A DNA stretch of 64,000 bases, from contig JAEYMU010000055.1 of assembly GCA_023407175.1 (NCBI GenBank), forward strand, positions 1-64,000, in the 5' to 3' direction. The notes under the pieces were generated by a model. That model was not told the origin of the DNA. It was given only the letters and a program-made list of their open reading frames with translations, and ran no database searches. Position 1 is the stretch's first letter, and every line of letters begins with the position of its first letter. The DNA comes from Bacillota bacterium (GTDB lineage: Bacteria; Bacillota_A; Clostridia; Lachnospirales; Lachnospiraceae). Shown here piece by piece: positions 1 through 41,110 of this stretch. Made by a program: the position numbers and the translations under genes.

Positions 1-3000
1 CACCGACACCATCCTGGTGGAAAAGGATGTTGACGCCAACCTCACCCTGAGCGGCGTGAACATCGACGTGAGCGGTACCTTCGGGCTGTGTGCCTTTGCC
101 ATTGCGGAGAACTCAAAAGGCAATGTAAACATCACACTCGCGGGGAACAACGTCTTAAAAAGCGGGATAAAATGCGCGGGGCTTCAGAAGAACGTCACCG
201 GAGACAATTTTCTGAATGCAGACATAGGCCTCCTTACCATCGATGTTGGCGATGGCGTTGCGGGCAGCCTGACAGCTGTCGGCGGAGGCGGAGGCGCGGG
301 CATCGGCGGAGGTTTATCTCGTAACAGCTGCAATATCACCATCAGCGGCGGTACGGTCACGGCTACCGGCGGCGATCGCGCACATAGCCCCGGCGACTAC
401 TTCTACAGAGGCGGCGCGGGTATCGGCGGCGGCGGCAGCAGCGGTACTTATAGCAATACCGCTGCAGGTGGAGCCCGTAATATTACCATCAGCGGCGGTA
501 CGGTTACAGCTACCGGCAACGAAGGTGGCGCGGGCATCGGCGGCGGAGGTAACTATATTGATACGTTTAATGTTCCCGGCGGCCCCGGCCAGTATATCAC
601 GATCAGCAGCGGTACGGTTATTGCTACCGGCGGCACGGGTATCGGCGGCGGCGGCTCTTATCATGGCAGCGGCGGCCTTGGCAGCTATATTACCATCAGC
701 AGCGGCACGGTTATTGCTACCGGCGATTGGGGCGCGGGCATCGGCGGCGGCGACGGCTATGGATATAGCCTCAACAGCCGTGGCGGCGATAGCAACTATA
801 TCACCATCAGCGGCGGTACGGTCACGGCTACCAGCAATTATGGCGCAGGCATCGGCGGCGGTCATTATGGCGGCGACGGCAAAAATATCACCATCAGCGG
901 CGGTATGGTTACAGCTACCAGCAGCGAGGGTGGCGCGGGCATCGGCGCAGGTGGGGGTTATGTCGATCATTTTAATCGTTACGGCGACGGCAGCAATATC
1001 ACCATCAGCGGCGGTACGGTCACGGCTGCCAGCAACGGCGCGGGCATCGGCGGAGGGGCGGGTGGCACGTGCGGCAATGTCACCATCAGCGGCGGCAGCG
1101 TCAAGACAAACCTGATCGGCGGAAAGGTCGGCGGTGTATATACCGATGCGACGGTTAAGGCGGCGGACGGGGTGCCTGTTTACCGCACCACGGTCACACT
1201 CCAGGGCGGCGATACTGTCAAGGCGGCGGTCAGCTCGCTGGGTGTAAGCCTAGACGGCGAAGCCCGTGACTACGGCGTAAAGGATATGTTCACCGACGCA
1301 AACGGCAGGCTGTACCTATACCTGCCCGGCAGCGCCATCACTACGGCGGCGCAGACCACGGACGCAGGGACGCCTCCCGTTCTCGCGAACTATACCGGCT
1401 CTATTGAAACCACGAATGACAATCAGGCGGCAGGCACGTTGGGCCTGGATACAACGGTCACCTTCGATTCCCAGGGGGGAAGTCCGGCAGTGAGTGTTAG
1501 CAATGTACCCTTCGGCTACCCTGTCAGTGAACCGGAAGCACCGGTACGGCCAGGCTATACCTTCGGAGGCTGGTATAAGGAAGCCTCCTGCACTAATGTA
1601 TGGAATTTCGGTACGGGTACGGTAACCGGCGATACCACCCTCTATGCAAAATGGACGGCTGTTTCCTATACGCTCACCTGTCATCTTGACGGCGGGGCGG
1701 TCAGTCCCGCTAATCCGGCGAGCTATACCATGGAAAGCGACGCTATTACCCTGAACAATCCCACAAGGTTAGGCTATACCTTCACCGGCTGGTCGGGCAC
1801 AGACATCACGGGAACCTCAATGAGCGTTGTCATCCTCAAAGGCTCCACAGGCAACCGGTCCTATACCGCGCACTGGACAGCAGTGTCCACGGCCGGAACG
1901 GTTACCATAATCTCAGGCGGCAACGGCACAGCAACAGGCGGAGGCACCTACAATCAAGGCCAAAGCGTGACCCTTGGCGCAGTCCCGGCAGCAGGCTACA
2001 ATTTTGACGGTTGGTATGAGGATACAGTAAAAGTTTCCTCTCTGCCCAATTACAGTTTTACAGTAACAACAGATATTACTCTGACCGCGAAGTTTACAGT
2101 CATGCAAAAGGATAGCCTGGAAGTCACCACCGTAGGGAACGGCACCGTGACGCTGAACGGCGGCAGCACGGCACTTCCGGCCTATTATCTCGCCCAGCAC
2201 ACAAGGGGCGACGTCATTACTCTGACAGCCACGGCGGGCAGCGGCAATGCCTTCGCTTACTGGCAGGACAGTCTTTCAGGAAGCATCCTCTCCACCAGTC
2301 CGGCCTATGAATTTGTCATGGGCGCGGGCGTATCACTGAAAGCGGTGTTTAGCAGGGTTCCGGACGCCAATACCTCAGAGTTTACAGTCATCTTCAAGGA
2401 TAAAAGCGGTAAAATCCTGCAATCCACCAATGTTGCAAAGAACGGGGCGGCAATCCCTCCGGCATCCCCCTCTCTGGTGGGCTACAGCTTTGCGGACTGG
2501 GATAAGACATTTAACGATGTAACCTCGGATATGACTGTCAACGCCCTGTATGAAAGACTGCCAACTACATATATGGTAACGGTTGTGGGCGGCACCTTGT
2601 CTGCAGGAGAAACCAGCGGCAGCTACAGGTATGACATGCCTGTAACGGTAGTAGCCGGTACAGCGGCCTCAGGACAAAAATTCAGCCATTGGGAGCAGGA
2701 CGGCGTGAAGATCAGTACCGACAGCACCTACAGCTTCTTTACCCCCATGAGGGCCACTACCCTTACCGCTGTGTTTGTATCAGCGGATACGGTCCTTGTG
2801 GAAGCACCGTTTATCACCCTGTCTGCGACAGTACAGGTGGATACGGTGGGCAAAAACATGCTCTTTACCGCCAACCGCACCGTACCTGCCGGATATACCC
2901 TGATCGAAAGCGGCGTCCTGCTGCTGAAGGCCAATACGCCACTATCCGGCGAGCTGACAGTGGACACGGCAGGCGTCATCCGCGGGAAGATCAAGAATGA

Positions 3001-3145
3001 TTCCACAGACCAGTTCCACATTCGGAAAAACAATATTACGGGCGGAGATACATGGTACGCAAGGGCATATCTGATTTACAGGGATGCGGACGGAAACATC
3101 ATCACGGTTTACAGTGCAAACACGGAAAGCCGTACAATGAATTAA
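1..3145 (+). CDS. Surface protein with Gly-rich beta-helix repeats and InlB-type repeats (5' end outside window)
   Basis: The frame is open to the left edge, so the N-terminus and any signal peptide are missing; about 1,047 residues are visible. The first part has about eight imperfect units of the form NITISGGTVTATG followed by GAGIGGG (bases about 330-1110), which suggests a right-handed beta-helix. From roughly residue 475 there are InlB/Listeria-Bacteroides repeats (GYTFGGWYKE, DTTLYAKWTA) and then divergent Bacterial-repeat modules (GYNFDGWYED, KFSHWEQDG). Such modules are typical of secreted or cell-wall proteins that bind surfaces or glycans. No LPXTG signal is seen at the C-terminus. 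The stop lies 17 bases before the start of the small peptide gene, so the two are probably co-transcribed. Function is inferred from repeats only. Confidence 0.85.
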   Translation, partial: TDTILVEKDVDANLTLSGVNIDVSGTFGLCAFAIAENSKGNVNITLAGNNVLKSGIKCAGLQKNVTGDNFLNADIGLLTIDVGDGVAGSLTAVGGGGGAGIGGGLSRNSCNITISGGTVTATGGDRAHSPGDYFYRGGAGIGGGGSSGTYSNTAAGGARNITISGGTVTATGNEGGAGIGGGGNYIDTFNVPGGPGQYITISSGTVIATGGTGIGGGGSYHGSGGLGSYITISSGTVIATGDWGAGIGGGDGYGYSLNSRGGDSNYITISGGTVTATSNYGAGIGGGHYGGDGKNITISGGMVTATSSEGGAGIGAGGGYVDHFNRYGDGSNITISGGTVTAASNGAGIGGGAGGTCGNVTISGGSVKTNLIGGKVGGVYTDATVKAADGVPVYRTTVTLQGGDTVKAAVSSLGVSLDGEARDYGVKDMFTDANGRLYLYLPGSAITTAAQTTDAGTPPVLANYTGSIETTNDNQAAGTLGLDTTVTFDSQGGSPAVSVSNVPFGYPVSEPEAPVRPGYTFGGWYKEASCTNVWNFGTGTVTGDTTLYAKWTAVSYTLTCHLDGGAVSPANPASYTMESDAITLNNPTRLGYTFTGWSGTDITGTSMSVVILKGSTGNRSYTAHWTAVSTAGTVTIISGGNGTATGGGTYNQGQSVTLGAVPAAGYNFDGWYEDTVKVSSLPNYSFTVTTDITLTAKFTVMQKDSLEVTTVGNGTVTLNGGSTALPAYYLAQHTRGDVITLTATAGSGNAFAYWQDSLSGSILSTSPAYEFVMGAGVSLKAVFSRVPDANTSEFTVIFKDKSGKILQSTNVAKNGAAIPPASPSLVGYSFADWDKTFNDVTSDMTVNALYERLPTTYMVTVVGGTLSAGETSGSYRYDMPVTVVAGTAASGQKFSHWEQDGVKISTDSTYSFFTPMRATTLTAVFVSADTVLVEAPFITLSATVQVDTVGKNMLFTANRTVPAGYTLIESGVLLLKANTPLSGELTVDTAGVIRGKIKNDSTDQFHIRKNNITGGDTWYARAYLIYRDADGNIITVYSANTESRTMN

Positions 3146-3162
3146 GTCAGGAGGTGTGAAGG

Positions 3163-3258
3163 ATGAAGAAAGCCTATGAAAAACCCGAAATTGAGATCAT
3201 CGTATTTGAGCCGGAGGACTTTTGCAACGTCAGCAGCCCGGATATCGGGGATTACTAA
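3163..3258 (+). CDS. 31-residue leader-like peptide, putative modified-peptide (RiPP) precursor
   Basis: ATG 3163 has a strong AGGAGG at 3149-3154 and the frame stops at TAA 3256-3258. The peptide starts MKKAYEKPEIEII, is acidic in the middle (FEPEDF) and ends CNVSSPDIGDY. The YxxPxI pattern near the start resembles the YxxP leader motif bound by PqqD-like recognition domains in lasso-peptide precursors. The short tail with one Cys and two adjacent Ser could be the modified part. The stop almost touches the TTG start of the kinase gene, which points to translational coupling. It is too short for homology to decide; the call rests on the RBS, the leader-like pattern and the neighbours (kinase, PqqD-like protein, peptidase, exporter, nucleotidyltransferase). 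Confidence 0.7.
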   Translation: MKKAYEKPEIEIIVFEPEDFCNVSSPDIGDY

Positions 3259-3259
3259 G

Positions 3260-3985
3260 TTGAACCGATATAAAATAGCAGATTTGACCGTTGCCATGGA
3301 ATGCTTTGGGGAAACCGTGCTTAAACAGGGAAAGCCCTATCAAACAGATGCCGGAAGCAATGCAGATATAAGAATAAGTATCGGCAAGGAAAGGCTGAGT
3401 GCCGTAAAGGAAAAGCATCCTCAGATGACCCTGGACGGATGGGAATATATCCTGACGGGCTTTGACTTTTCCCGTGAGCTTATAAGCTTTGATGGCTTTT
3501 GCCTTCACGCTTCTGCAGTGGGGCTGGATGGAAAGGCAGTGCTGTTTTCCGGACCCTGCGGCACGGGTAAATCCACCCATGCCAGGCTGTGGCGGGAGGT
3601 TTTCGGCAGGGATAAGGAAGTGATCGTAATCAATGACGACAAGCCCGCCCTGCGCTTGATAAGAGATGAGGTCTATGTCTATGGAACACCCTGGAGCGGA
3701 AAAAGCCATCTCCACACAAATATCAAAATGCCTTTGCAGGCCATTGTCTTTCTCAAACAGGCGGAGAAAAACGAAATCAGGCGTCTGACCAATAAGGAAG
3801 CGGTGCAAATGCTGGTCTACCAGAGCCTGCGTCCCGACAGGGACACTGAGAAGATGGAAAAGCTCTTGTCCCTTCTGGACCGGCTGCTGGTAAGGACGCC
3901 GGTATACCAGTTGGATTGCACCGTCAGCCATGAGGCTGTAAGGCTGGTCTATAACGAAATCAACAAGGTGGAAAAGAGGGATTGA
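3260..3985 (+). CDS. HprK-related serine kinase, putative peptide kinase
   Basis: The start is taken as TTG 3260, one base after the peptide stop, with GGGG at 3247-3250; this gives 241 residues beginning MNRYKIADLTV. The family is the C-terminal domain of HPr kinase. A P-loop (GPCGTGKST, residues 98-106) follows FCLHASAV, and NDDKPALRL and YGTPWSGK match the conserved second half of the family. Full-length HPr kinases are about 310 residues with an extra N-terminal domain, which is absent here. Short relatives sit in lasso-peptide clusters of paeninodin type, where they phosphorylate a Ser of the precursor. Here the likely substrate is the adjacent 31-residue peptide; this is inference from position. 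Confidence 0.8.
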   Translation: MNRYKIADLTVAMECFGETVLKQGKPYQTDAGSNADIRISIGKERLSAVKEKHPQMTLDGWEYILTGFDFSRELISFDGFCLHASAVGLDGKAVLFSGPCGTGKSTHARLWREVFGRDKEVIVINDDKPALRLIRDEVYVYGTPWSGKSHLHTNIKMPLQAIVFLKQAEKNEIRRLTNKEAVQMLVYQSLRPDRDTEKMEKLLSLLDRLLVRTPVYQLDCTVSHEAVRLVYNEINKVEKRD

Positions 3986-3988
3986 ACG

Positions 3989-4252
3989 ATGAAAATGAAA
4001 GCCGGTTACATAGTAAGAGAGGTTGCCGGGACCCATGTGGTGGTCCCCACCGGGGCGGCAGCGGTGGATTTCAGCGGAATGATCAACTTAAACGGCACAG
4101 GGGCGCTCCTGTGGAATCAGCTGGCAGAGGGGAAAACCGAACAGGAGCTGCTTACGGTCCTGCTTGAGGAATACGAAATTGACGAGGCAAGCGCAAAAGC
4201 CGACATTTCCGAGTTCCTTAAAAAATTAAAAGCGGCGGATCTCCTTGAATAA
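3989..4252 (+). CDS. PqqD-like peptide recognition protein
   Basis: 87 residues starting at ATG 3989, with GAGGG at 3976-3980 and three bases after the kinase stop. The fold is the PqqD/RiPP-recognition-element type: an N-terminal beta part (YIVREVAGTHVVVPTG), the hallmark LNGTGALLWNQL segment, then helices with EQELLTVLLEEYEID and a C-terminal FLKKLKAADLLE. Proteins of this family hold the leader of a precursor peptide and present it to modifying enzymes. The length is normal for a stand-alone PqqD. Its place between the kinase and a peptidase supports a scaffold role for the 31-residue peptide. The family call is firm; the partner is inferred. Confidence 0.85.
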   Translation: MKMKAGYIVREVAGTHVVVPTGAAAVDFSGMINLNGTGALLWNQLAEGKTEQELLTVLLEEYEIDEASAKADISEFLKKLKAADLLE

Positions 4253-4742
4253 AAAGGTATCCCTGTCGGAGCTGTCCTCTTTCCTCTTGGAAATTCTGCA
4301 AGACGGCGGAGAAGTCATCCTGACAGTAACCGGGTGCAGTATGGCCCCCATGCTGCGCCACCGCAGGGATAAGGTTTGCCTTGCTAAATCCCCCGAAGAA
4401 CCTTTGCAAAAATATGACCTTCCTCTCTTTATCCGAAGTGACGGCAGATACATCCTGCACCGGATTGTGGAGGTGGCACCGTCGGGCTATACCGTCATGG
4501 GGGATAACCAGTGCGTCAGGGAATATCCTGTGCTGCCCTCCCAGGTCATTGGCGTGGTCAGGGGCTTCTGGCGGGACGGCAGATACATTGCCTGCAATAA
4601 TCCCTTGTATCTGCTCTATTGCAGGCTTTGGTGTTTTTTGCATCCTGTTCGCCTGGCCTGTCTGAAAGGCAGGCATTTCATGAAAAGATGTGCCGCAAAG
4701 CTTTTTACCGGAAGCAGGGGAGATAAAAATAATGAAGGATAG
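4245..4742 (+). CDS. S24/S26-family signal-peptidase-like protease (Ser/His type)
   Basis: 165 residues from TTG 4245, which overlaps the last codons of the PqqD-like gene. The motif TGCSMAPML places the nucleophile at Ser32. YILHRIVEV gives a His at position 72 where bacterial type I signal peptidases have Lys; Ser/His is the pattern of the SipW/eukaryote-like S26B branch. TVMGDNQ near residue 84 is the conserved GD box. The N-terminal membrane anchor is missing and only a weak hydrophobic stretch (about 119-140) occurs near the C-terminus. Such short S24/S26 proteins recur in peptide-modification clusters, so it may cut the leader from the peptide before export. It overlaps the next gene by 11 bases. 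Confidence 0.75.
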   Translation: MNKKVSLSELSSFLLEILQDGGEVILTVTGCSMAPMLRHRRDKVCLAKSPEEPLQKYDLPLFIRSDGRYILHRIVEVAPSGYTVMGDNQCVREYPVLPSQVIGVVRGFWRDGRYIACNNPLYLLYCRLWCFLHPVRLACLKGRHFMKRCAAKLFTGSRGDKNNEG

Positions 4743-6429
4743 AAAGACTTTTTCATGGATATATAAAAATTCAAAAACACAGCTTTTCCCTCTGCTGGCT
4801 TTCCTGCTGGCAAATATACTGTTTGCAGGGTGCGGCATCCTGTTTGCCCTGGCCTGCCGGGGTGTCATTGATGCCGGCGCCGGGGGAGAAAAGAATATCC
4901 TGGTCACACAGAGCGCAGGCTTGTTTGCGGTGATCGTACTGCAGCTCGTCCTGCGCGTCCTCTGCCGGGGCCTGGAGGTACGGATACAGGGCAGGCTGGA
5001 AACGGGATATAAGCAAAAGCTCATGGGGCAGCTTTTCATCAAGGATTATGCCCATACGTCCCGATACCACACCGGTGAACTGATAAACAGGCTCACCAGT
5101 GATATTACGGTCGTTACAGAAGGAACCGCAGCCATTCTGCCCGAGCTTGCGGGTCTGCTTACAAAGCTCTCGGGAGCGCTGGCCGTGCTGTGTATATTCG
5201 ACCCGGCCTTTGCCCTTGTATTTGCCATGGGAGGTCTGCTCCTGTTTTTCAGTACAAAGTATTTCAGAGGAAAACTGAAGCATCTGCATAAAACCATGCA
5301 GGAAAAGGACGGCGCGGCCCGTTCCCTCCTGCAGGAGCTGTTGGAGAGCCTGATTGTTATAAAAATATTCGATGCCCAATATGAAATGGGAGAAAAAACG
5401 CGGGGAGTTTTGCAGGAGCACTACAAGGCGAAGCTTAGAAAAAATACCGTCAGCATTCTGGCCAATTCCGGCTTTAACTTTATTTTTTCCACCGGCTATT
5501 TATTTGCCCTGGTATGGAGCGCTTACCGGCTTGTTGCGGGGACGATGAGCTTTGGAACACTCACCGCCATTCTGCAGCTGGCGGGACAGGTCCAGTCGCC
5601 CTTTGCCGGGCTGTCGGGCCTGCTTCCCAGGACATACGGCGTCCTTGCCTCCGCCGAAAGGCTCATGGAGCTTGAAAGCCTGCCCGGTGAAGTTGACATT
5701 AACAAAAAAGAAATGAATGTGTCCGAGGTTTACGGACATTTACAGTATATACAGTTTGAAAAGGTTTCTTTTGAGTACGACAGGGAGCTGGTGTTTCAAA
5801 ATGCCGGTTTGACCATTGACAAAGGGGATTTTGTTATTGTTTCCGGACTGTCCGGGATCGGTAAGAGCACCCTGTTCAAGCTGCTGCTGGGCGTATTGGC
5901 CCCAGCCGCCGGGTCTATCTGCTTTGTGCTGGATACCAGCGAAAGGATACCGGCCGACAAGCATACGCGGAAGCTGTTTGCCTATGTACCGCAGGGAAAT
6001 CTGCTGCTGTCGGGAAGCATCCGGGACAGTATTGCCTTCGCCCGGGCAAAAGCAACCGATGCGGAAATCATGGCTGCCGCAGAGGCAAGCTGTGCCGCAG
6101 AATTTATACGCGCCCTGCCGGACGGCCTTAATACCGTCATCGGCGAAAAGGGGCTGGGCTTATCCGAGGGACAGATACAGCGTCTTGCCATTGCCAGGGC
6201 AGTTTTATACGGAGCGCCCATCCTGCTTTTGGATGAGGCCACCTCCGCCCTTGACGAGGCCACCGAAGAAAGACTGCTTGAGAATATCAAAGGAATGGCG
6301 GATAAGACCTGCATTCTCATCACTCACAAAAAAGCGGCGCTGTCCCTATGCAACAAAGAAATCCGCATACAGAACGGAATGCTTCAAACCATCGAAAGGG
6401 GGCTTCAAATTGCAATCCATACTGCCTGA
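4732..6429 (+). CDS. ABC exporter with fused membrane and ATPase domains
   Basis: ATG 4732 is chosen because AGGGGAG lies just upstream; an in-frame GTG further upstream lacks a good RBS. The 565-residue protein has a six-helix type I exporter domain (about residues 15-290) and an ATPase domain with Walker A GLSGIGKST (372-380), signature LSEGQ (about 477; the usual form is LSGGQ), Walker B ILLLDEATSALD and an H-loop THKK. This is a half-transporter that would work as a dimer. It lacks the N-terminal C39 peptidase of many peptide exporters, which fits with the separate S26-type peptidase upstream. The probable cargo is the modified peptide; this is inferred from the operon. Confidence 0.85.
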   Translation: MKDRKTFSWIYKNSKTQLFPLLAFLLANILFAGCGILFALACRGVIDAGAGGEKNILVTQSAGLFAVIVLQLVLRVLCRGLEVRIQGRLETGYKQKLMGQLFIKDYAHTSRYHTGELINRLTSDITVVTEGTAAILPELAGLLTKLSGALAVLCIFDPAFALVFAMGGLLLFFSTKYFRGKLKHLHKTMQEKDGAARSLLQELLESLIVIKIFDAQYEMGEKTRGVLQEHYKAKLRKNTVSILANSGFNFIFSTGYLFALVWSAYRLVAGTMSFGTLTAILQLAGQVQSPFAGLSGLLPRTYGVLASAERLMELESLPGEVDINKKEMNVSEVYGHLQYIQFEKVSFEYDRELVFQNAGLTIDKGDFVIVSGLSGIGKSTLFKLLLGVLAPAAGSICFVLDTSERIPADKHTRKLFAYVPQGNLLLSGSIRDSIAFARAKATDAEIMAAAEASCAAEFIRALPDGLNTVIGEKGLGLSEGQIQRLAIARAVLYGAPILLLDEATSALDEATEERLLENIKGMADKTCILITHKKAALSLCNKEIRIQNGMLQTIERGLQIAIHTA

Positions 6430-7603
6430 AAGAAACTATTTAATCCGGCTGCTGTCCTCTGTTATGGAGGACGCACAGCCGCCGGTCCCGCCGGAAGAAA
6501 TGGACCCGGAAAAGCTGTACAGGCTTTCGGCACGGCACAGCGTATCCAACATGGCATGGTATGGCTTAAAAAAGCTGGAACACGGCCACCAGCTGTCCCA
6601 GGAAGTAATGGAAAAATTCCGGAACGACTATAACAAGGCCGCCGGCAAGGAAGCCATGCAGCATATCATGTTGGAAAAGGTTCTGGCAGCCTTTGAGGAA
6701 AACCATATCGCCTGTATGCCGCTGAAAGGGTGTCTGCTCAAGTATCTATACCCTCATCCCAATATGCGGCTGATGGCCGATATCGACATTCTGTTTCAAA
6801 CAGAGCAGACGGAGCAGGTGAAGTCTCTGATGACGGATTTGGGCTTCACCGTGGATCATGTGGACGGAAACCATGACTGCTATGGCTTGCTTCCCTATAT
6901 GAAAATAGAAATGCACCATAGGCTGGTCCCGGAAGACAGTCCCTACAGCGATTATCTGGATAAAACCTGGAACAGGACCAGGCTGAAAGAAAACTGCCAA
7001 TACACCTATGAGTTATCCCATGAGGACTTTTTCATCTATCTGCTGATTCACCTTACCAAGCATTATATGGGCGGCGGAACCGGCATCCGTTCCTTCATGG
7101 ACCTATGGGTGTACCATCGCCACTATCAGTCTGAAATGGATTGGAACTATACGGAAGCCGAATTAACGAAAATCAAGCTCCGGGATTTCGTGGAAAATAT
7201 CCTCGGACTTTGCGAAGTATGGTTTGGGAACGCCCGGAGTAATGCGCTATGTGAAGAAATAGCGGAGTATGTATTGGATAGCGGTGTCTACGGGACAAAA
7301 AAACACGCAGTCGTGTCCTCTATGGGCATCAAGTCAGACAAAAAGCATTCTGTCAGGATGGCAAAATGGCGGTACAGCTTGAAGCTGTTCTTTCCACCCC
7401 TTGACATCATGAAAATCCAATACCCGTTCCTTGAAGCAGTGCTGTTCCTATTGCCGGCCTGCTGGGTGCTGCGGGGCATCCGGTGCATCGTATTCAAGCG
7501 CCAGCATACGCTGCAAATGATCAATCATGTCCACTGCGTGTCGGAGGAGGACATAAGAAAAATAGGAAGCCTGCATGAGAGGACCGGGCTTTTGAAGCAA
7601 TGA
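6410..7603 (+). CDS. Nucleotidyltransferase-fold family protein of the peptide cluster
   Basis: TTG 6410 is chosen because GAAAGGGGG lies at 6394-6401; it overlaps the exporter gene by 20 bases. The open frame runs much further upstream but that part only mirrors the exporter gene. The 397-residue protein has the PF14907-type nucleotidyltransferase core: PLKGCLLKYLY, then RLMADIDILF with the paired Asp125 and Asp127 that would bind metal. Relatives occur in lasso-peptide clusters beside HprK-like kinases, where a nucleotidyl group or sugar phosphate may be added to the peptide. The C-terminus has a hydrophobic stretch near LFLLPACWVL. It is the last gene of the operon. Confidence 0.75.
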   Translation: MQSILPERNYLIRLLSSVMEDAQPPVPPEEMDPEKLYRLSARHSVSNMAWYGLKKLEHGHQLSQEVMEKFRNDYNKAAGKEAMQHIMLEKVLAAFEENHIACMPLKGCLLKYLYPHPNMRLMADIDILFQTEQTEQVKSLMTDLGFTVDHVDGNHDCYGLLPYMKIEMHHRLVPEDSPYSDYLDKTWNRTRLKENCQYTYELSHEDFFIYLLIHLTKHYMGGGTGIRSFMDLWVYHRHYQSEMDWNYTEAELTKIKLRDFVENILGLCEVWFGNARSNALCEEIAEYVLDSGVYGTKKHAVVSSMGIKSDKKHSVRMAKWRYSLKLFFPPLDIMKIQYPFLEAVLFLLPACWVLRGIRCIVFKRQHTLQMINHVHCVSEEDIRKIGSLHERTGLLKQ

Positions 7604-7672: not shown

Positions 7673-8305
7673 CTATATCAACCGTTGCAATTCCTCTATT
7701 GAATTTATTTTAATATCTGCTTTCCCATAACGTTTGGCATCTCCGATTGCTATCGCAACCATATCGGCTGCTTTCGCCGCATCGATTCCGGAACATGCAT
7801 CCTCAACCACAGCACATTCCGAGGGCCGGACATTAAGAAGATATGCGGCCTTCAAAAACACCTCCGGATTTGGCTTCGAATTATTTATGATCGTTCCGTC
7901 CGACACAGCATCAAAATAATTAAGCAGCTCCACCTTCTCCAATATATATCTTGCATTTTTGCTGGAGGAACCAATTGCTAATTTATAATTATTTTTTTTC
8001 AGGATTTCAAGAGTTTCTCTCACCGGCTTCTCAACATCTGCCGCTGTCATACCAAGTAAATACTCTTTATAATACTCATTCTTTTCCCTGGCCAGCTCTT
8101 CCTTATCCTCAAGGCTTATTGCAGGCCCTTGATAAGTTTCCAGAACAATTTCCAGGGATTCCATCCGGGATACTCCGCGCAGTCTGCTATTCATCTGCTC
8201 ATTAAAGCAAATTCCCAGCTTATCGGATATTTTCTTCCATGCCAGATAATGATAGCAGTCCGTATGCACAAGAACTCCGTCCAAGTCAAATATAAATGCT
8301 TTCAT
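7673..8305 (-). CDS. pgmB: Beta-phosphoglucomutase, HAD family
   Basis: 210 residues starting MKAFIFDLDGVLVHTD: the DLDG motif supplies the nucleophile Asp and acid/base Asp of HAD phosphomutases, followed by the helical cap (GVSRMESLEIVLETY). IGSSSKNA and VVEDACSGIDAAKAAD match the conserved Ser and acidic loops of beta-phosphoglucomutase. It converts beta-glucose 1-phosphate to glucose 6-phosphate. It lies 45 bases after the GH65 phosphorylase, whose product is beta-glucose 1-phosphate, so the two form the usual phosphorylase/mutase pair at the end of the operon. Confidence 0.92.
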   Translation of the reverse strand: MKAFIFDLDGVLVHTDCYHYLAWKKISDKLGICFNEQMNSRLRGVSRMESLEIVLETYQGPAISLEDKEELAREKNEYYKEYLLGMTAADVEKPVRETLEILKKNNYKLAIGSSSKNARYILEKVELLNYFDAVSDGTIINNSKPNPEVFLKAAYLLNVRPSECAVVEDACSGIDAAKAADMVAIAIGDAKRYGKADIKINSIEELQRLI

Positions 8306-8350
8306 TTGTTATTCTCCTACACAATGTCTGCTGAGGCTTAAATTGTAATA

Positions 8351-10678
8351 TTATTTCAATAAACTGACCGTAATTCTGTCTTCTACCTTTTTTTCTTCCC
8401 CATACAGTATAATATCAACCGGCTTTCCTTCTAACAGTGATAAGACACATTTCCCATCTGTCACCTCTACCATAATCCTGCTGTTTTCATAGGTTATTAC
8501 AAACCGGTAGCCCTTCCACTCCTTGGGCAGAGCCGGAGCACAGAATAAGCCCTTTTCTTTGATTCTTATCCCCGCAAAACCATAAACGATGGCCATATAG
8601 TTGCCTCCCATATTGGCCGTATGAATTCCGTCCTTGGTATTTTGATGTGTATTGAATAAATCAAGCTTGGCTGAATCGCCAAAATATCTGTAGGCCTTCT
8701 CCATCTGTCCGAGTCTGGAGGCAATGATACTGAAAATACAGGTGGACAGGGAGGAATCATGGGTAGTTATTTCTTCATAGTATTCAAAGGATTTACGAAT
8801 AGTTTCTTTACTCTGATAATCCTCCAGTATAAAATGGGACAATACGGTATCTGCCTGCTTGCAGACCTGATACCGGTACAGGGTCAACGGATGATAATGT
8901 AATAATAGCGGGAAATCCTTTCTTGGCGTTTTCTCAACATTCCATTTCTTTTTATGTAAAAAAGAATCATCCTGGGGATTAATCCCTAATTTTTCATCAT
9001 AGGGCAAATACATTCTATCGGCTGCCTGAGTGATTTCTTCCAGCTCCGCTTCAGTAAGCTCAAGCCGTTTCATCAATTCTTTTGCCCCGCTGCCCTCCAG
9101 CAGCCTGATAATTTTGACTGCCCATTCCATATTGTATTTGGCTAAAGCATTCGTATAATAATTATTATTCACCAGGCAGGTATATTCATCCGGTCCTGTT
9201 ACCTCATGAATTTCAAATCTTCCCTCCGAATATACACCGGTATCCAGCCACAGCCTTGCCGTTTCAAGTATTATTTCAGCGCCCATTTCATGTATAAAAT
9301 CCATATCCTTTGTAGCCAGGTAATACTGGATTACCGCATATGCGATATCTCCGCTTATGTGGTACTGAGCGGTTCCCGACGGAAAATAACCGGAACATTC
9401 TATTCCGTTAATCGTTCTCCAGGGATACAATGCCCCTTTTTTATGTCCCAATAGCCTGGCATTTTTCTTTGCATAGGGTAAGGTTTTATACCGATATGCA
9501 AGGCTGGCCCTGGCATATTCCGGATTTGTAAGAAGCATACAGGGCAGAATATACATTTCCGTGTCCCAGAAGAAATGTCCCTCATAGCCTTCACCGCTCA
9601 ACCCTTTTGCAGAGATATTACTGTATTCGTCTTTTCCTATTGATTGAAGAAGCTGGTATATGTTATAGGTAATTGCCAGGTCAAGCTCCCTGTCTCCTTC
9701 AATATCGATACTGCTGTTCTTCCAAAAACGTTCCAGATAATCCTTCTGCTCCCGGTATAGGCTCTCAACCGGAATATCCTTCAGACCATTTATTAGCTGC
9801 CCGCAATATTCCGAATAATCCGTATTCCTTACACTATCCGTAAAACAGCTGTACTGATATAAGGTATATTTTTCTCCTTGCTTCATCTCACCCATGATAT
9901 TTCCGTTTACACAGCCCTCGGCAGCCTGATAATAATTTACCGCCTGGGGTATATCGGTTCTGTGCATAACGGCAGAGCAAAGGGAAAGCTTAGATTTTAA
10001 AGTTTCAGACGTAATATAAGAAATATCATTATCGATTAATATACTCTTGATGTACAGATATTGCAGACTTTCATCTGCGACGCGCGGATCATTCGTATCG
10101 GAATAGTTAGTAACCATTCCATTATGAGTGGTAATAAACTGAAGCTTCCCGCTATAGTTTAAGGGTATAACAGAATACTCAATCAGAAACAGATTACGGC
10201 GTACAAAGGAGGTCATTCTTTTTATTTCTATTCTTGTATGTTTCCCCTCCGGAGACAGCCAATCGACAGTCCTTATCGTCACACCCGCATCCATATCTAT
10301 CGTCCTTCTGCTGCTTATAACTCTGCCGTGAAACATGCTGAACATTTCTCCGTCCAGAATAGCCTTTATACTCTGTGTATCTGCAACATTTACGATTGTC
10401 TGCTTATCCTCTACAAGGCCATATAGCTTTTCAGCCTGTTTCATATCTGTATAATCATAAAATGCATTAATATATTCACCTCGAATTGATACCAGGTCCT
10501 CAGGATACCCCTCTTCAAAGCCGCCTCGAATGCCAATATATCCGTTCGAATTATGAAACAGGGTTTCATTCGTTAAAAGCTCATTCTGTCCCAGTGAAAA
10601 ATCATTTATTGTATATTCTCTTGTGCCACGCATTATTTCTTTGTATGATGCATCATCAGACGGAACACATCGATACAC
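8351..10678 (-). CDS. GH65 disaccharide phosphorylase (maltose/kojibiose/trehalose phosphorylase type)
   Basis: 775 residues from GTG 10678; ATG 10633 (MRGTREYTINDF) is an alternative giving 760 residues, and neither has an ideal RBS distance. The N-terminal beta-sandwich has HNSNGYIGIRGGF. The (alpha/alpha)6 barrel has FWDTEMYILPCML and HEVTGPDEYTCLVNNNYYTNA; the Glu in GPDEY (residue 498) is the GH65 general acid. The enzymes cleave an alpha-linked glucoside with phosphate and release beta-glucose 1-phosphate, which suits the next gene, pgmB. The family has many specificities (maltose, trehalose, kojibiose, nigerose, glucosyl-rhamnose) and the sequence alone does not decide. Cytoplasmic; the substrate would enter through the operon's ABC transporter. 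Confidence 0.9.
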   Translation of the reverse strand: MYRCVPSDDASYKEIMRGTREYTINDFSLGQNELLTNETLFHNSNGYIGIRGGFEEGYPEDLVSIRGEYINAFYDYTDMKQAEKLYGLVEDKQTIVNVADTQSIKAILDGEMFSMFHGRVISSRRTIDMDAGVTIRTVDWLSPEGKHTRIEIKRMTSFVRRNLFLIEYSVIPLNYSGKLQFITTHNGMVTNYSDTNDPRVADESLQYLYIKSILIDNDISYITSETLKSKLSLCSAVMHRTDIPQAVNYYQAAEGCVNGNIMGEMKQGEKYTLYQYSCFTDSVRNTDYSEYCGQLINGLKDIPVESLYREQKDYLERFWKNSSIDIEGDRELDLAITYNIYQLLQSIGKDEYSNISAKGLSGEGYEGHFFWDTEMYILPCMLLTNPEYARASLAYRYKTLPYAKKNARLLGHKKGALYPWRTINGIECSGYFPSGTAQYHISGDIAYAVIQYYLATKDMDFIHEMGAEIILETARLWLDTGVYSEGRFEIHEVTGPDEYTCLVNNNYYTNALAKYNMEWAVKIIRLLEGSGAKELMKRLELTEAELEEITQAADRMYLPYDEKLGINPQDDSFLHKKKWNVEKTPRKDFPLLLHYHPLTLYRYQVCKQADTVLSHFILEDYQSKETIRKSFEYYEEITTHDSSLSTCIFSIIASRLGQMEKAYRYFGDSAKLDLFNTHQNTKDGIHTANMGGNYMAIVYGFAGIRIKEKGLFCAPALPKEWKGYRFVITYENSRIMVEVTDGKCVLSLLEGKPVDIILYGEEKKVEDRITVSLLK

Positions 10679-10720
10679 TCCTTTCTGATTACTTTATAAA
10701 AACCGATGCATTGATTATCT

Positions 10721-11596
10721 CTATCTTTCTTCGATAGATAAGTCCTTCTGAGTATGAATCCTGTTTTTATCATAGGCCACGCTGATACGCTTATGAACAG
10801 CCCGGTATGCTGCGCAGGCCGCGCTGGTTTCAAAGCTTTCATTTGCACAGCCGGCATATATCATTGCAATGCATTCCATATATTCGTCCAAAATATCCTT
10901 GCCGATCAGCCTGTCATGGTGTGCCGGCAGCATAATATCATATCTGTGTCCAATCGCTTTCATCTTCTCAAGCGTTTTCCTGTATTCCTCCACCGTCAAT
11001 GAGTAATCAATTGCCAGCAGTACTCCCATCGAACAGGCTGTGTCGCCGGTATACAGCCATCTGCGCTCTATATCCAGAAGACATAGGGAGCCGGGAGAAT
11101 GCCCCGGGGTTAATATCACTTCAACGCTGCGATTTCCCAGTAAAAACACCTGACCCTCTTCCGCATATTTGTAGGACGCACCGGCTTTCATTTTAGCCCG
11201 TTTTTTTATTATGCTTTCCAGCACAAAGGAATCAACCAGCCAATCCGCATAACCTTTTTCCTTTAGCAGACCTTTTATGAACTGGCTGCGATAAGCTGTA
11301 TCACTATGCTTTTTTACAACTTCCTCTTCCGATGAATGAATGTAAACCTCCTCAAAGAATGCATTCCTTCCGATATGGTCCAGATGTCCGTGGGTATTAA
11401 TGACAGTTACCGGCAGCGAGGTGAGCTTTCTTACAATCTTCTCCAGCTTTATTGAACCTATTCCTGTATCAATAAGCAGTGCCTTCCGTTCTCCCTCAAG
11501 TAAATACATATACACCCGGCCTGTTCCGGAACCTTCTTCAATCCTCCAGGTATGTGCATCCAGCTGATTGACTCTATGATAAGTTTTTGTATCCAT
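10721..11596 (-). CDS. MBL-fold metallo-hydrolase
   Basis: 291 residues from ATG 11596, which overlaps the deacetylase stop by one base (TAATG). The metal-binding motif THGHLDHIG (His69, His71, Asp73, His74) is intact. LTPGHSPGSLCLLD supplies the next His, LYTGDTACS the bridging Asp, and MLPAHHD the last His. This is a complete metallo-beta-lactamase-fold site for two zinc ions. The family includes thioesterases, lactonases, phosphodiesterases and other hydrolases, and the substrate cannot be read from the sequence. Its place inside a sugar-uptake operon suggests hydrolysis of a substituted sugar or a sugar lactone. Confidence 0.85.
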   Translation of the reverse strand: MDTKTYHRVNQLDAHTWRIEEGSGTGRVYMYLLEGERKALLIDTGIGSIKLEKIVRKLTSLPVTVINTHGHLDHIGRNAFFEEVYIHSSEEEVVKKHSDTAYRSQFIKGLLKEKGYADWLVDSFVLESIIKKRAKMKAGASYKYAEEGQVFLLGNRSVEVILTPGHSPGSLCLLDIERRWLYTGDTACSMGVLLAIDYSLTVEEYRKTLEKMKAIGHRYDIMLPAHHDRLIGKDILDEYMECIAMIYAGCANESFETSAACAAYRAVHKRISVAYDKNRIHTQKDLSIEER

Positions 11597-12411
11597 TAAA
11601 ATACCTCCACCAGCAGGTCATAGGTATCCTCTTGCGGTGCTGCATCATCATATCTCACCGTTGTGATATTTCTCTCCTTACATATCTGTTCCGCCATACC
11701 GCTGACCAGCAGCTGATATTCCATATCTCTTGCGATGGCAACCTCACCGTCGGGATAAAATCTATTTTTGCACAGGAGCATCTCCCGGCTATATTTTGCA
11801 GGATGCATTACCGAAAAATATAGTCCGTCTTTTAAGTATGAAATCCATTCTCTATAATAACTGGCGGCTTCCTCTATTGTTTTTCCCTTCCTGGGTTCAA
11901 ACTGCTCCTTCGGTGCCCGGTAATAATAGATTTGATTGATCAGTCCCTTTTTATCAGCCCAGTCGTCAAAGGCTTCTCTCAATCCCGTGATATATTTTAA
12001 AGGAAACATATGTGTATCCGCATACGTGATTTCAAATCCCAGCTGATGAAGATATTCAAGCTGGGCATCATATTCCCGTATAACCTCCTCCGCATCTATT
12101 CCCTTACCGGCAAACTCCGCCGTATCAGCTATAAATGCCCCGTTATGATCAACTAAATGAGGCACCTGGGCCGCGGGCAGAATAGGCATCCATTTAATCA
12201 AATCCCATTCCGCGTTAATGGTGGCATGTAATCCGTAGCATATTTTCTTGCATTTTAAGGCCATCTCCGCCGCCTCTTCAATCATGGGAGCAGGAGCCAT
12301 CACGGATACGTTTTTGATATAATTACCTTGACTTATTTCTTCATATATCGCTTTGTTCGCAGCATGGCTGGAACCAAAATCATCAGCTCTTGTAAGTAAT
12401 TTAATTGGCAT
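11596..12411 (-). CDS. ChbG/HpnK (YdjC) family carbohydrate deacetylase
   Basis: The start is ATG 12411 (MPIKLLTRADDFG) because GAAAGGAAG lies upstream; 271 residues. RADDFGSSHAANKAI carries the metal-binding Asp pair of the family, HATINAEWD the following His region, and EITYADTHMFPLKYI the conserved HxH-like segment. Known members remove acetyl groups from N-acetylated sugars such as diacetylchitobiose 6-phosphate or hopanoid glucosamine. It overlaps the esterase gene by 11 bases. In this operon it could deacetylate the imported disaccharide or its phosphorolysis product; the exact substrate is unknown. Confidence 0.82.
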   Translation of the reverse strand: MPIKLLTRADDFGSSHAANKAIYEEISQGNYIKNVSVMAPAPMIEEAAEMALKCKKICYGLHATINAEWDLIKWMPILPAAQVPHLVDHNGAFIADTAEFAGKGIDAEEVIREYDAQLEYLHQLGFEITYADTHMFPLKYITGLREAFDDWADKKGLINQIYYYRAPKEQFEPRKGKTIEEAASYYREWISYLKDGLYFSVMHPAKYSREMLLCKNRFYPDGEVAIARDMEYQLLVSGMAEQICKERNITTVRYDDAAPQEDTYDLLVEVF

Positions 12412-13303
12412 GGCTGCACTTCCTTTCAAAGAACTCCAATACAGGTATAATATTATCCTCCAGAAAGAATTCCGGTCCTGCACCTGCATGACTTACTCCG
12501 GAGAGAACCTTATATTCAAAATCATCTTTGCCAAGAATAAGCCGTACCTTCTCAGCAAATTCATTTGAATGTTCAATCGGTATAATCGGATCAGCATCTC
12601 CGTGCATAAGATATAAGGGTGTTATTCCATTTTTTATAAAATTGGTTGGGTTACACCGGTCCAGCACTTCTTTTCTCGGTTTGGCACTCCCGAACATTCT
12701 TTTCTTCATAACATAAATCATAGCATTCATTTTAAGCCGCTCAATCAGTCTGCCCTTTCCATAAATATGCTCTATATCGATAGCCGGACAGAAGGCTGCA
12801 GTTGCCATAAGCTTCAGTCCATAGGGGTACTGATTATTCTTCATCACCTCTAAGCCCTTGTGGCAGGCCGCCTGTAAAACCAGATTACCTCCGGCAGAGG
12901 TGCCCCACAGAAATACCTGGTCCATATTCAGAAGATACTCCCTTCCATGTCCGGCAATCCATTGCAGCGCACATATTACATCCCGCAGGTGCACCGGATA
13001 CTTTACTTCCGGTGACAATCGGTAATTAACCATGACAACAGCAAAATTTCTTCTTAAGGCATACATGGTCGGATACATATGAAAATCTCTTTTGTCACAA
13101 TGATTAAAACCGCCTCCGTGCACATTCACAATTACAGGAAAAGGGCCCTGCCCTTCCTCCGGCAGATAGATATCGAGCTTTTGCAGCTCATGCTCCTTAT
13201 CATAAGCAATATCCAGCCACCTTCTGCTAATCCCGTCTATCTTTGTTCTCGGTATTTTATAGGATAAATCGATCCACTTTTCCTCCAGTTTATCTAAAGA
13301 CAT
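12401..13303 (-). CDS. Alpha/beta hydrolase (esterase, HGGG type)
   Basis: ATG 13303 is chosen over an upstream TTG (13333) because GGAGG lies five bases before it; 300 residues. VHGGGF (residues 61-66) is the oxyanion-hole motif of the hormone-sensitive-lipase/BD-FAE-like group. GTSAGGN gives the nucleophile Ser136. HGDADPIIP supplies the acid and SGVSHAGAG the catalytic His. Without a signal peptide it acts in the cytoplasm. In an operon with a sugar transporter, a deacetylase and a phosphorylase, removal of O-acyl groups from an imported sugar is the simplest guess. Confidence 0.85.
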   Translation of the reverse strand: MSLDKLEEKWIDLSYKIPRTKIDGISRRWLDIAYDKEHELQKLDIYLPEEGQGPFPVIVNVHGGGFNHCDKRDFHMYPTMYALRRNFAVVMVNYRLSPEVKYPVHLRDVICALQWIAGHGREYLLNMDQVFLWGTSAGGNLVLQAACHKGLEVMKNNQYPYGLKLMATAAFCPAIDIEHIYGKGRLIERLKMNAMIYVMKKRMFGSAKPRKEVLDRCNPTNFIKNGITPLYLMHGDADPIIPIEHSNEFAEKVRLILGKDDFEYKVLSGVSHAGAGPEFFLEDNIIPVLEFFERKCSHAN

Positions 13304-13336
13304 ACCGTCCTCCGTTTCATGGGCATTACCCAATGC

Positions 13337-14161
13337 TTATCCTTTTATCGCACCTTCCGTATATCCTGCCATGACCTGCTTTTGTAAAATCAAATAGATA
13401 ATCAGCATAGGTGCAATCGTAACTACAATAGCAGCCATAATCAATTGCCACTCACTTAAATAGCTTCCGAAAAAATTACTCAAAGCCAGAGGAATTGTTT
13501 TTCTCTCCTTGCTGGACAGCATAATTAGCGGCAGTGTGAAATCATTATAAACCGCAAGCAAATTCAGTACTGCAACAGTGACTGTCATCGGCTTCATAAC
13601 AGGAAAAACGATTCCGAAAAACACCTGGTATTGATTGCAGCCATCGGTAAACGCGGCCTCCTCAATCTCTATCGGAATGCTCTTAACAAAACCCTGATAT
13701 AAAAACACGGCCATAGGCAGAAGGAAACCCCAGTACATAATCACTAAACCCATTTGAGAATTTACAATTCTCAAATGATTTGCCACTATTACAACGGGCA
13801 CCATCAGTACCTGGAATGGGATCGTCATCGATAATAGCAGCCCCAGAAAGATCAATTTACTGGCCAGGCATTTCTTTCGAACTATTTGGTAAGCTGTCAT
13901 ACTGCTGAACAGCAGTACGCCAATCAGGCTGAGCACCGTGATAAATAATGTATTCCGGAACGAAACCCCAAAATTCATGCGCCTGATAGCTTCTGAAAAA
14001 TTCTCCCAATGAATTTTTACCGGCAGGGACAGCATATTAAGTGTTACCTCCTGCAGACTCTTGACAGAGTTGATTGCAACAAAAAGCAAAGGAAATATTA
14101 CCAAAAGTCCCAGTGCTGTCATGATGACCTGAAGCAGCAGCATTCCCAGTTTCTTATTCAT
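13337..14161 (-). CDS. Sugar ABC transporter permease (MalG type)
   Basis: ATG 14161 (MNKKLGMLLLQ) has AAAGGAGAC upstream and overlaps the stop of the partner permease (TAATG); 274 residues. Six membrane segments are visible, starting with LLLQVIMTALGLLVIFPLLF. The ATPase-contact loop EEAAFTDGCNQYQVFFGIVFPVMKP is the EAA motif of CUT1 permeases. It pairs with the MalF-type permease to import an oligosaccharide. No ATPase gene is in the operon, so a shared MsmK-type ATPase encoded elsewhere is likely, as is common in Firmicutes. Confidence 0.92.
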   Translation of the reverse strand: MNKKLGMLLLQVIMTALGLLVIFPLLFVAINSVKSLQEVTLNMLSLPVKIHWENFSEAIRRMNFGVSFRNTLFITVLSLIGVLLFSSMTAYQIVRKKCLASKLIFLGLLLSMTIPFQVLMVPVVIVANHLRIVNSQMGLVIMYWGFLLPMAVFLYQGFVKSIPIEIEEAAFTDGCNQYQVFFGIVFPVMKPMTVTVAVLNLLAVYNDFTLPLIMLSSKERKTIPLALSNFFGSYLSEWQLIMAAIVVTIAPMLIIYLILQKQVMAGYTEGAIKG

Positions 14162-15039
14162 TATGCTTCTGTCTCCTTTCGTCTCATAAAAAATACCTGC
14201 AAAAGCGAGATAACAATAATCATAATACAAAATATGATAGCCTTCGCGGATGCGTAGGACAGCATATCCCTTTTAAATGCATCGGTATAGATTTGGAAGG
14301 ATATTGTATTGGTGGAACCAAAGGGCCCGCCCGATGTGAGGGAATATATCATATCAAAGGCCTTTAAACCATTGACAATACTCAGGAAAATACACACGGT
14401 AAAGGTCGGTCTGATAATCGGGACGGTAACGTGGAAGAATTTCTTCCATTTACTGGCTCCGTCAATTTCGGCAGCCTCAAGAAGCTCTCTGGGAACGGAT
14501 TGCAGACCTGTTAAATATATGATCATATAATAGCCAAAGGATTGCCAGACAGTTGCTATGATTAAAGCAGCATATGCCGTACCCGGATAAGCAAGCCAGT
14601 TTCTGGCAAGCATCTCTATGCCAAACAGATTTCCCAAATAGGGAAACAATTTGGATACAATAATATTCCACATATATCCGACAACCACGGCACTGATTAC
14701 AATCGGCACAAAGAATGCCGTCCTAAGGAGTCCCCGCAGCTTCAGCTTTGTATTAAGGGCCAATGCAGTTAATAAACCAATCAGATTAAGCAGGATTACC
14801 AGAACAGCCATATAGTTTAAGGTAAAGAGTATAGAGTTTATAAAGGCTTTTTCCTTAAATACATTAATATAGTTCTGAATCCCAACAAAATTATAAGCTG
14901 TGCTGATTCCATTCCAATCCTGCAAAGAGTAATAGATAGCAAGTCCGAGAGGCCATAGAATAAACAGGCAATAAAGTATAATTGACGGTCCGGTAAAAGT
15001 GAAATAAGTCAGCCCCTGTTTTATGTTTTTCTTTTTCAT
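14161..15039 (-). CDS. Sugar ABC transporter permease (MalF/UgpA type)
   Basis: ATG 15039 (MKKKNIKQGLTYF) has GAGGAAA upstream; 292 residues. TFTGPSIILYCLFILWPLGLAIYYSLQDWNG is the typical first helix and periplasmic loop of CUT1 permeases. The EAA loop reads LEAAEIDGASKWKKFFHVTVPIIRPT. It is the partner of the MalG-type permease and follows the binding-protein gene after a stable hairpin (15060-15110). Confidence 0.92.
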   Translation of the reverse strand: MKKKNIKQGLTYFTFTGPSIILYCLFILWPLGLAIYYSLQDWNGISTAYNFVGIQNYINVFKEKAFINSILFTLNYMAVLVILLNLIGLLTALALNTKLKLRGLLRTAFFVPIVISAVVVGYMWNIIVSKLFPYLGNLFGIEMLARNWLAYPGTAYAALIIATVWQSFGYYMIIYLTGLQSVPRELLEAAEIDGASKWKKFFHVTVPIIRPTFTVCIFLSIVNGLKAFDMIYSLTSGGPFGSTNTISFQIYTDAFKRDMLSYASAKAIIFCIMIIVISLLQVFFMRRKETEA

Positions 15040-15059
15040 TCGATTTCCTCGCTTTAGGA

Positions 15060-15110
15060 TAAGGCTGCTGCATAACAAAGGGTTATTATATTTATTCTGC
15101 AGCAGCCTTA
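15060..15110 (-). terminator. Stem-loop between binding-protein and permease genes
   Basis: A 12-bp perfect stem (15060-15071 with 15099-15110, TAAGGCTGCTGC and its complement) encloses a 27-base loop in the 79 bases between the solute-binding gene and the permease genes. There is no strong T-tract, so it probably protects the 3' end of the binding-protein message or gives partial termination. This would keep the binding protein more abundant than the permeases, a known pattern in such operons. Confidence 0.7.
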
Positions 15111-15118
15111 CATTTTAC

Positions 15119-16420: not shown

Positions 16421-16454
16421 AAGTCTTCTCCTTTGATAATTTTATGTTGATGTA

Positions 16455-16468
16455 ATAAAACGTTTTAT
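16455..16468. promoter_or_regulatory. LacI-family operator overlapping the operon start
   Basis: ATAAAACGTTTTAT is a perfect 14-bp palindrome with the central CG typical of LacI-family operators. It lies just downstream of the -10 box of the sugar operon, where a bound repressor would block transcription. A shorter copy of the core, AAACGTTT, is at 16600-16607 upstream of the promoter and could allow looping. The adjacent LacI-family gene is the likely binder. Confidence 0.75.
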
Positions 16469-16477
16469 ACATGCCTC

Positions 16478-16506
16478 ATCTTAACATCTTCATATATTAT
16501 CGTCAA
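16478..16506 (-). promoter_or_regulatory. Sigma-A-type promoter of the sugar ABC/GH65 operon
   Basis: On the minus strand TTGACG (16506-16501) and TAAGAT (16483-16478) are separated by exactly 17 bases. Transcription would start near 16471, about 50 bases before the binding-protein start codon, with the palindromic operator covering the start site. Confidence 0.75.
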
Positions 16507-16626
16507 TTATGCCTACTTTTTTTGTGTATTTTGTATAATTTTATTCAACTTATTCCCCTTAGATTAAACTTGATCTCATTATTATATCTAAGTTCATATA
16601 AACGTTTTACTAATATTTTTACTACA

Positions 16627-30187: not shown

Positions 30188-30245
30188 CCTGCTTCCATTA
30201 ATTACTTAAATTTCCATCCCCTATTGCTGTAAAGGAGCTGATATT

Positions 30246-41049: not shown

Positions 41050-41110
41050 ATTCAACCTCATTTCTGCGCTGTCGAATGCTCCCCTGCGGAAGCCGTGCGC
41101 ATTTTATTCC

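Follow-up and report, generated by a model that had tools for sequence, protein, structure and literature searches.

A clostridial operon for a predicted linear phosphopeptide-type product, with its precursor gene behind a large surface-type protein gene

The first 64,000 nucleotides of contig JAEYMU010000055.1 (assembly GCA_023407175.1, a member of the Lachnospiraceae), hereafter the window, hold a compact operon at 3149-7603 that encodes, in this order, a short precursor peptide, an HprK-like kinase, a discrete PqqD-type recognition element (RRE) for ribosomally synthesized and post-translationally modified peptides (RiPPs), an S26-type peptidase, an ABC exporter and a nucleotidyltransferase. 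The system is real, conserved and of the kind described in May 2026 as linear polyphosphorylated peptides (LPPs), and the apparently new part is the pairing of its peptide gene with an exoprotein gene directly upstream. The position of the peptide gene behind a large surface-type protein gene hints at the purpose of LPPs. An earlier note on this DNA had delimited the operon at 3149-7603, which stands, but had missed the exoprotein gene just ahead of it, whose end is at 3145 and which seems to be part of the same unit; as a whole, its interpretation is partly supported.

The operon and its precursor peptide

All six genes lie on the plus strand, from the Shine-Dalgarno sequence of the peptide gene, AGGAGGT (3149-3155), to the end of the nucleotidyltransferase gene. 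The LppA-like precursor (3163-3258; identified by its open reading frame (ORF), family profile and alignment) has 31 residues, MKKAYEKPEIEIIVFEPEDFCNVSSPDIGDY. The LppK-like kinase gene (3260-3985) most likely begins at TTG 3260 and not at the ATG 3176 of the ORF list, which leaves a gap of 1 nt to the peptide stop, and the LppB-like PqqD gene (3989-4252) follows the kinase gene across a gap of 3 nt. The genes for the LppS-like Ser-His peptidase (4245-4742), the LppD-like ABC exporter (4732-6429) and the LppN/PsmN-like nucleotidyltransferase (6410-7603, TTG start) each overlap the gene before. The overlaps described in the earlier note are thus present for these three genes, but not for the kinase and PqqD genes, which follow their neighbors across short gaps.

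The proposal that a 31-residue YxxPxI peptide precedes the kinase is borne out by the full Shine-Dalgarno sequence and by conservation of the family. A family profile finds 256 database proteins at E<=10, and within the window the peptide frame is the only match to the profile that includes it. Read in the register of BsfA, from which the cleavage site is also predicted, residues 1-21 (3163-3225) would form the leader, with the RRE motif Y5-x-x-P8-x-I10 (YEKPEI), and the predicted core NVSSPDIGDY follows at 3226-3255. The leader of the window's relatives reads YxxPxIExxxFExEDIxxxS, and its position -2 is Ile, Val, Leu or Met in 96% of the database peptides listed, with Ile among the two commonest. 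Aligned on the leader Tyr as -17, 100 of 119 database peptides have Ser at core position +3 (the 120 listed of the 256 matches, less P0220, which has no leader match; next-best core Ser column, 19%). The same residue occupies +3 in 21 of 34 hand-listed peptides, chosen by eye from kinase-locus scans that ignored this position (next-best column, 12%). No other core position has a strongly preferred residue, and conserved ring residues are absent from the cores of the 119 peptides. Alignment of the short peptides found beside kinases, a check proposed in the earlier note, therefore yields one strongly preferred core residue. In the window peptide it corresponds to Ser24 (codon 3232-3234), which is the predicted phosphorylation site because core Ser3 carries phosphate in both LppA (PMC13381572) and BsfA (PMC10368454), with the adjoining Ser25 as a possible alternative.

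For the kinase, profile support is weak (41 bits to ScmC, TIGR04249, against a curated cut-off of 125), and a sequence search of solved structures returned nothing useful. Its AlphaFold2 model (pLDDT 91) has HPr kinase/phosphatase as its first PDB fold matches (E 3e-6), with phosphoenolpyruvate carboxykinases (PEPCKs), known relatives of the HPr kinase fold, mixed among them. Homologue alignment adds that H83, G101, G103, K104, S105, D126 and D127 are invariant in 40 aligned kinases, and these residues correspond to the BsfK motif (PMC10368454). Judged by its model, the kinase is HprK-fold, and it combines the HprK/PEPCK fold with the His-Lys-Asp-Asp residues of the HPr kinase superfamily.

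The other assignments in the earlier note are likewise upheld, by profiles and invariant residues. The PqqD-type protein matches PF05402 at E 7e-18, in agreement with NCBIfam and with its homologues, and the transferase matches NTP_transf_5 (PF14907) at E 7e-67. The exporter, of the MsbA/type I kind, carries ABC_membrane and ABC_tran (Pfam), with NCBIfam matches below their cut-offs. The S26/SpI-like call is weak by profile (Pfam E 0.19, NCBIfam E 1.8e-4); we accept it because Ser32, His72 and Asp87 are invariant in 78 homologues. LppS depends on S29, H68 and D93 (PMC13381572), the last of which presumably has its counterpart in Asp87. A cut after the conserved Ser, following the (-3,-1) rule of signal peptidases, was considered and dropped, as LppS cleaves two residues ahead of Ser3 (PMC13381572). 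As for the transferase, PsmN puts hexoses on pseudomycoidin (PMC9266682), LppN was without visible effect (PMC13381572), and this step is uncertain even in the LPP and lasso systems.

The kinase, RRE and transferase are shared with paeninodin-type lasso clusters, a kinship already drawn in the earlier note, and the operon might be read as a lasso cluster served by a cyclase from another part of the genome. The leader register and the Ile/Val at -2 match the BsfA lasso precursors (PMC10368454), and in one of 121 kinase loci (L032) an Asn-synthetase-type gene (12040-13881) lies 2.3 kb behind the kinase. That gene, however, looks AsnB-like by sequence, sharing 74% identity with a synthetase of ordinary appearance and 27% with a lasso-type one, and it is the only one of its type in the 121 loci. 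Neither hallmark of a lasso system, a macrolactam cyclase (PF00733) or a B2 leader peptidase (PF13471), was found here: there is no Asn_synthase or Transglut_core3 match among the 48 window proteins scanned, a subset of the ORFs. Moreover, tblastn with one B2 protein from the genome of L008 found no relative in the 121 loci, the whole window included (the cyclase and B2 queries were proteins of five reference stretches). A B2 match over cut-off is missing from 21 of 22 cassette genomes, and in the remaining one, that of L008, B2 lies at 6.33 Mb and the cassette at about 3.44 Mb, some 2.9 Mb apart. Nine of the 22 have no Asn_synthase match of at least 50 bits. The S26 enzyme takes the place of B2 in LPPs (PMC13381572), and the core shows no conserved ring residues. 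On the B2, Asn_synthase and L032 evidence the distant-cyclase explanation is rejected as highly improbable, and the absence of a cyclase and of a transglutaminase-like peptidase, remarked on in the earlier note, holds for the window proteins scanned, with the AsnB-like gene of L032 the one such find in related loci. The product instead appears, from the gene set, to be a linear polyphosphorylated-type peptide made without a ring-forming enzyme.

Distribution of the cassette among relatives

Searched against proteins, the kinase has 6746 matches at E<=0.001. At least 385 kinase loci were confirmed when genomes were scanned, one for each species. The best 80 of these, 40 further loci from Clostridia-class genomes and the window make up the 121 loci compared here, among which two pairs have an identical kinase over the last 180 residues (L079/L127 and L052/L055). 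Loci L081-L111 are excluded from the neighborhood counts; L081 is a partial kinase locus from a scan of viral_contigs and was not used. Near the kinase, PqqD occurs in 95 of the 121 loci, S26 in 76, both in 74, ABC in 38 and the nucleotidyltransferase in 31, as counted with profiles that started from the window genes and so overlook divergent copies, and with some loci cut by contig ends. The neighborhood search suggested in the earlier note thus finds kinase, PqqD and S26 together in most loci. All four partners accompany the kinase in 17 loci, 13 of which also have a YxxP/FxxP peptide (the window, L001, L003, L004, L005, L007, L063, L073, L112-L115 and L147). Many homologous kinases, but not all of them, are accordingly preceded by a conserved short frame.

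Among 391 Clostridia-class genomes, the peptide is found at E<=1e-4 in 35, and 34 of these also have the kinase, compared with 106 of 391 overall (E<=1e-30; P 2e-20, uncorrected for kinship). Without the seven genomes that contributed to the profile, the kinase is present in 27 of 28 peptide genomes versus 99 of 384 (P 1e-16, likewise uncorrected), and some bias remains in this co-occurrence, the peptide profile having been built from kinase-locus peptides. Peptide genes can also be scattered over a genome: 14 occur in G237, which has two kinase matches, 10 each in G097 and G381, with one kinase each, and five in G009. In the order of the Paenibacillus relative, the kinase profile, which was built from clostridial-type sequences, matches 4 of 296 genomes (E<=1e-15). 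This distribution shows that the LPP variant is common in Clostridia.

Pairing with secreted proteins

Directly upstream of the peptide gene, the 3' part of an exoprotein gene (2-3145, plus strand) encodes beta-helix, Listeria-Bacteroides and InlB repeats (Pfam) in a frame that is open to the window start; the peptide start lies 17 nt behind its stop. Such an arrangement recurs. In 73 of 77 peptide entries a same-strand ORF of at least 120 aa lies within 300 nt upstream, at a median of 18 nt and at 10-50 nt in 56 of them, the four entries without one being L054, L073, L145 and L183; in L060 two exoprotein-peptide pairs stand in tandem. At the kinase loci, 18 of 23 untruncated upstream genes encode a secreted protein and share the strand of the peptide gene, versus 81 of 412 secreted in the background (Fisher 9e-9). 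At scattered sites, where same-strand genes were considered, a secreted protein is encoded upstream in 29 of 39 cases against the same background (Fisher 6e-12), both values being uncorrected for kinship and resting on a rough, home-made signal-peptide rule by which several negatives look secreted by eye. The first count covers 32 entries from 31 loci (L060 twice), nine with the upstream gene cut at a contig end, and omits L046, L067 and L076, where the peptide lies downstream of the kinase or on the opposite strand. The second draws on 45 peptides, namely the listed ones of G237, G381, G097 and G125, two of four in G072, one in G281 and four in G009, with L195 and L195b having one upstream protein in common. 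In L207 (8192-8490), only the 56-residue end of an exoprotein frame of the window's type precedes the peptide, and the gene may be broken or misread.

The window exoprotein ends in a 118-aa C-terminal domain (CTD; 2789-3142, plus strand) that is predicted to be an all-beta, Ig/FnIII-like sandwich (pLDDT 92.8). It has no Pfam match, and its fold search against the PDB gave weak matches to Ig/FnIII-like and other beta-sandwich structures, none at E<=0.001. Upstream exoproteins are alike at their C-termini: the largest blastp group takes in 10 of 69 when the last 130 residues are compared and 3 of 56 when residues 41-170 are, in a grouping where some frames are cut at the start and 7 of the 32 kinase-locus entries, mostly without a secreted neighbor, are omitted. 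An iterated CTD profile matches 15 of 73 peptide-upstream proteins (nine profile seeds and six new ones, L027, L115, L137, L152, L154 and L154b) versus 5 of 1131 other kinase-locus C-termini. Three of these five lie immediately ahead of a kinase gene (L041, L059 and L066), and two lie near the cassette of L005. The CTD also terminates giant open frames of 6,607-7,273 codons in the genome of L005, far from the cassette (G003, L158-L161).

Anchored proteins form a second group of neighbors. A surface-layer homology (SLH) protein stands between peptide and kinase in L001, L003, L005, L007 and L112 (Pfam-confirmed in L003 and L005), with the C-termini ADIVDL, ADMVDY, ADIVDY, ADTVEL and ADIVDY, respectively. 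Near-copies of the peptide core occur in anchored SLH, transmembrane or lipoproteins of three loci: TQSDNDIADPWG in the core and TNDDNDIADPWG in the anchored protein of L027, GDGVILPDE and GEGIVLPDD in L157, and GLESSIF and GLEDSIF in L134. In L027 and L134, one peptide Ser is Asp in the anchored copy. These stretches would favor the idea that kinase, RRE and peptidase modify the anchored proteins, with the peptide as a regulator or decoy. Mimicry of the core is striking in L027 and good in L157 and L134, but as a general rule it was discarded, since the resemblance of core and anchored protein within a locus is not significant when all loci are taken together (p 0.29 and 0.033 in one analysis; 0.12, and 0.28 without L027, in a second). 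Furthermore, YxxP is absent from the nine anchored proteins checked, five of them (L001, L003, L005, L007 and L033) having WxxP within the SLH part, and the window has no SLH match. We therefore regard modification of anchored proteins as improbable. Separately, similar C-termini occur in unrelated proteins near the kinase that look anchored: DDNWTGLY (a putative lipoprotein in L116), and DDGWTGIY and DEGWSGIY (L027).

Taken together, these features suggest the following scheme. The PqqD-type RRE would bind the leader at YEKPEI and present the peptide to the kinase, which would phosphorylate Ser24, perhaps more than once. The S26-type peptidase would then cut off the leader at about residue 21. 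The PF14907 transferase may add a nucleotide or sugar to the phosphate, and the ABC protein would export a short, linear, acidic phosphopeptide. Outside the cell, the peptide would meet the upstream-encoded exoprotein, most likely via its C-terminal Ig-like domain. The steps through leader removal are predicted by homology to tested LPP and Bsf enzymes; the transferase product, export and meeting with the exoprotein are what we infer beyond them. The phosphorylation, signal-peptidase-like cleavage and export foreseen in the earlier note agree with this scheme. As a whole, this scheme, a clostridial LPP variant whose phosphopeptide is exported as the partner of an exoprotein, is in our judgment quite probable. 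A more far-reaching version, put forward tentatively and with less than an even chance, holds that each secreted protein has its private phosphopeptide, that a shared kinase, RRE and peptidase, also serving scattered peptides in trans, phosphorylate it in the cytoplasm, where it may be capped as well, and that the Sec-exported exoprotein is assembled with its peptide outside, possibly docking to anchors that bear look-alikes of the core. If true, this would be a new way of maturing or anchoring proteins at the cell surface and would give LPPs a biological role.

The peptide could instead be an LPP-type RiPP that is secreted as a signal or an antimicrobial, with the adjoining exoprotein a co-regulated surface or biofilm gene. 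Several kinase loci (L015, L021, L031, L063, L065 and L070) adjoin genes that look like CpsC/CpsD/PHP-type capsule regulators. Published LPP clusters, for their part, are patchy, move horizontally and lie beside capsule loci, with their role left open (PMC13381572). Against this stands the position of the peptides about 18 nt behind secreted-protein genes, recurring at scattered, enzyme-free sites, which would be odd for a free product, and we consider such a free product possible but rather unlikely.

Several observations weigh against the proposed scheme of a clostridial LPP variant with an exoprotein partner. Contact between peptide and exoprotein is proposed from gene adjacency, and the signal peptide of the window exoprotein is invisible because the 5' end of its gene lies beyond the window edge. 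The window core has Ser25 next to Ser24, and in the near relatives L003, L005, L007 and L112 the Ser is at core position 2 instead. No peptide was found in 4 of the 17 full-cassette loci (L002, L023, L031 and L074), 72 of the 106 kinase genomes have no peptide match at E<=1e-4, and G281 is a peptide genome without a kinase match. Among peptide-upstream proteins, 58 of 73 do not match the window-type CTD, and several CTD exoproteins in the genome of L005 lie away from the single peptide found there. In L206 the cassette comes with a peptide, but no exoprotein gene precedes that peptide, and in the stretch examined of L208, a distant locus from the Paenibacillus-order search, the cassette has no CTD exoprotein or matching peptide. 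Given L206, L208, G281 and the peptide-less kinase genomes, the pairing may be a trait of Clostridia that not all LPPs share. The leader also falls short of the full LPP consensus, its letters differing at HQ and FET, and the spacing from Tyr to Ser is one residue longer than in LPPs, as in BsfA (PMC13381572, PMC10368454).

Elsewhere in the window, HAD phosphatase, GH65 phosphorylase, sugar-type ABC transporter, YdjC-like and LacI-type genes (7673-17610) probably form a disaccharide locus unrelated to the peptide operon. Further along lie a pyruvate-formate-lyase-like glycyl radical enzyme with a radical S-adenosylmethionine (SAM) protein, probably its activase (22670-25890), and a BspA-type leucine-rich repeat protein with a Big_14 protein after it (27848-31139), behind which there is no peptide-profile match. 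Pyridoxal-phosphate-dependent enzymes are accompanied by a GNAT-GST fusion and another GST-like protein (37578-41061), a set that seems unusual for a clostridium.

Comparison with known systems

The SynChlorMet cassette, whose ScmC the kinase distantly resembles, contains a radical SAM gene, which is absent from the window operon; the literature searched on SynChlorMet and ScmC gave nothing relevant. Much closer are the LPPs of Paenibacillus alginolyticus (lppA-K-B-S-D-N; Popov et al., May 2026, PMC13381572), with which the operon shares the same six genes in the same order, among them those for a discrete RRE, an HprK-like kinase, a SipW-like Ser/His peptidase, an MsbA-like exporter and an NTP transferase. 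Also in common are the YxxP leader, Ser at core position 3 (at the predicted cleavage site), the catalytic Ser/His/Asp and a gene set without a cyclase. The earlier note knew of no described product of this gene set, a view that publication of the class has overtaken. Differences lie in the leader, published as YxxPxVLxHQxIxFETxxS, and in the precursor, 31 aa with a core of about 10 aa here versus 35-200 aa there. The setting differs too, exoprotein and SLH genes here as opposed to capsule loci, as does the scattering of precursors in some of the window's relatives. The leader departs from the LPP consensus, and we therefore speak of a clostridial variant of LPP. The defining paper leaves the role of LPPs unknown, and its main text does not mention Clostridi*, S-layer, surface protein, secreted, Sec-dependent or exoprotein (PMC13381572); nor was a pairing of peptide and secreted protein found described in the literature searched. 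That pairing, which extends to scattered pairs with one or two cassettes to serve them, offers a direct and testable lead to the role of LPPs.

Phosphorylated lasso peptides (paeninodin, pseudomycoidin and Bsf) have kinase, RRE and transferase in common with the operon (PMC10368454, PMC9266682), and the Bsf leader resembles the window peptide in Y(-17), P(-14), Ile/Val(-2) and Ser3 (PMC10368454), but their cyclase and B2 cysteine peptidase are lacking here. Finally, QhpC, the gamma subunit of quinohemoprotein amine dehydrogenase, is made by radical SAM and flavoprotein chemistry with a subtilisin-like peptidase, and we claim no sequence kinship with it. Even so, it is modified in the cytoplasm, loses its leader and is exported through a dedicated ABC transporter before the small modified peptide joins a larger exported subunit, providing a precedent for the assembly proposed here (PMC7876137).

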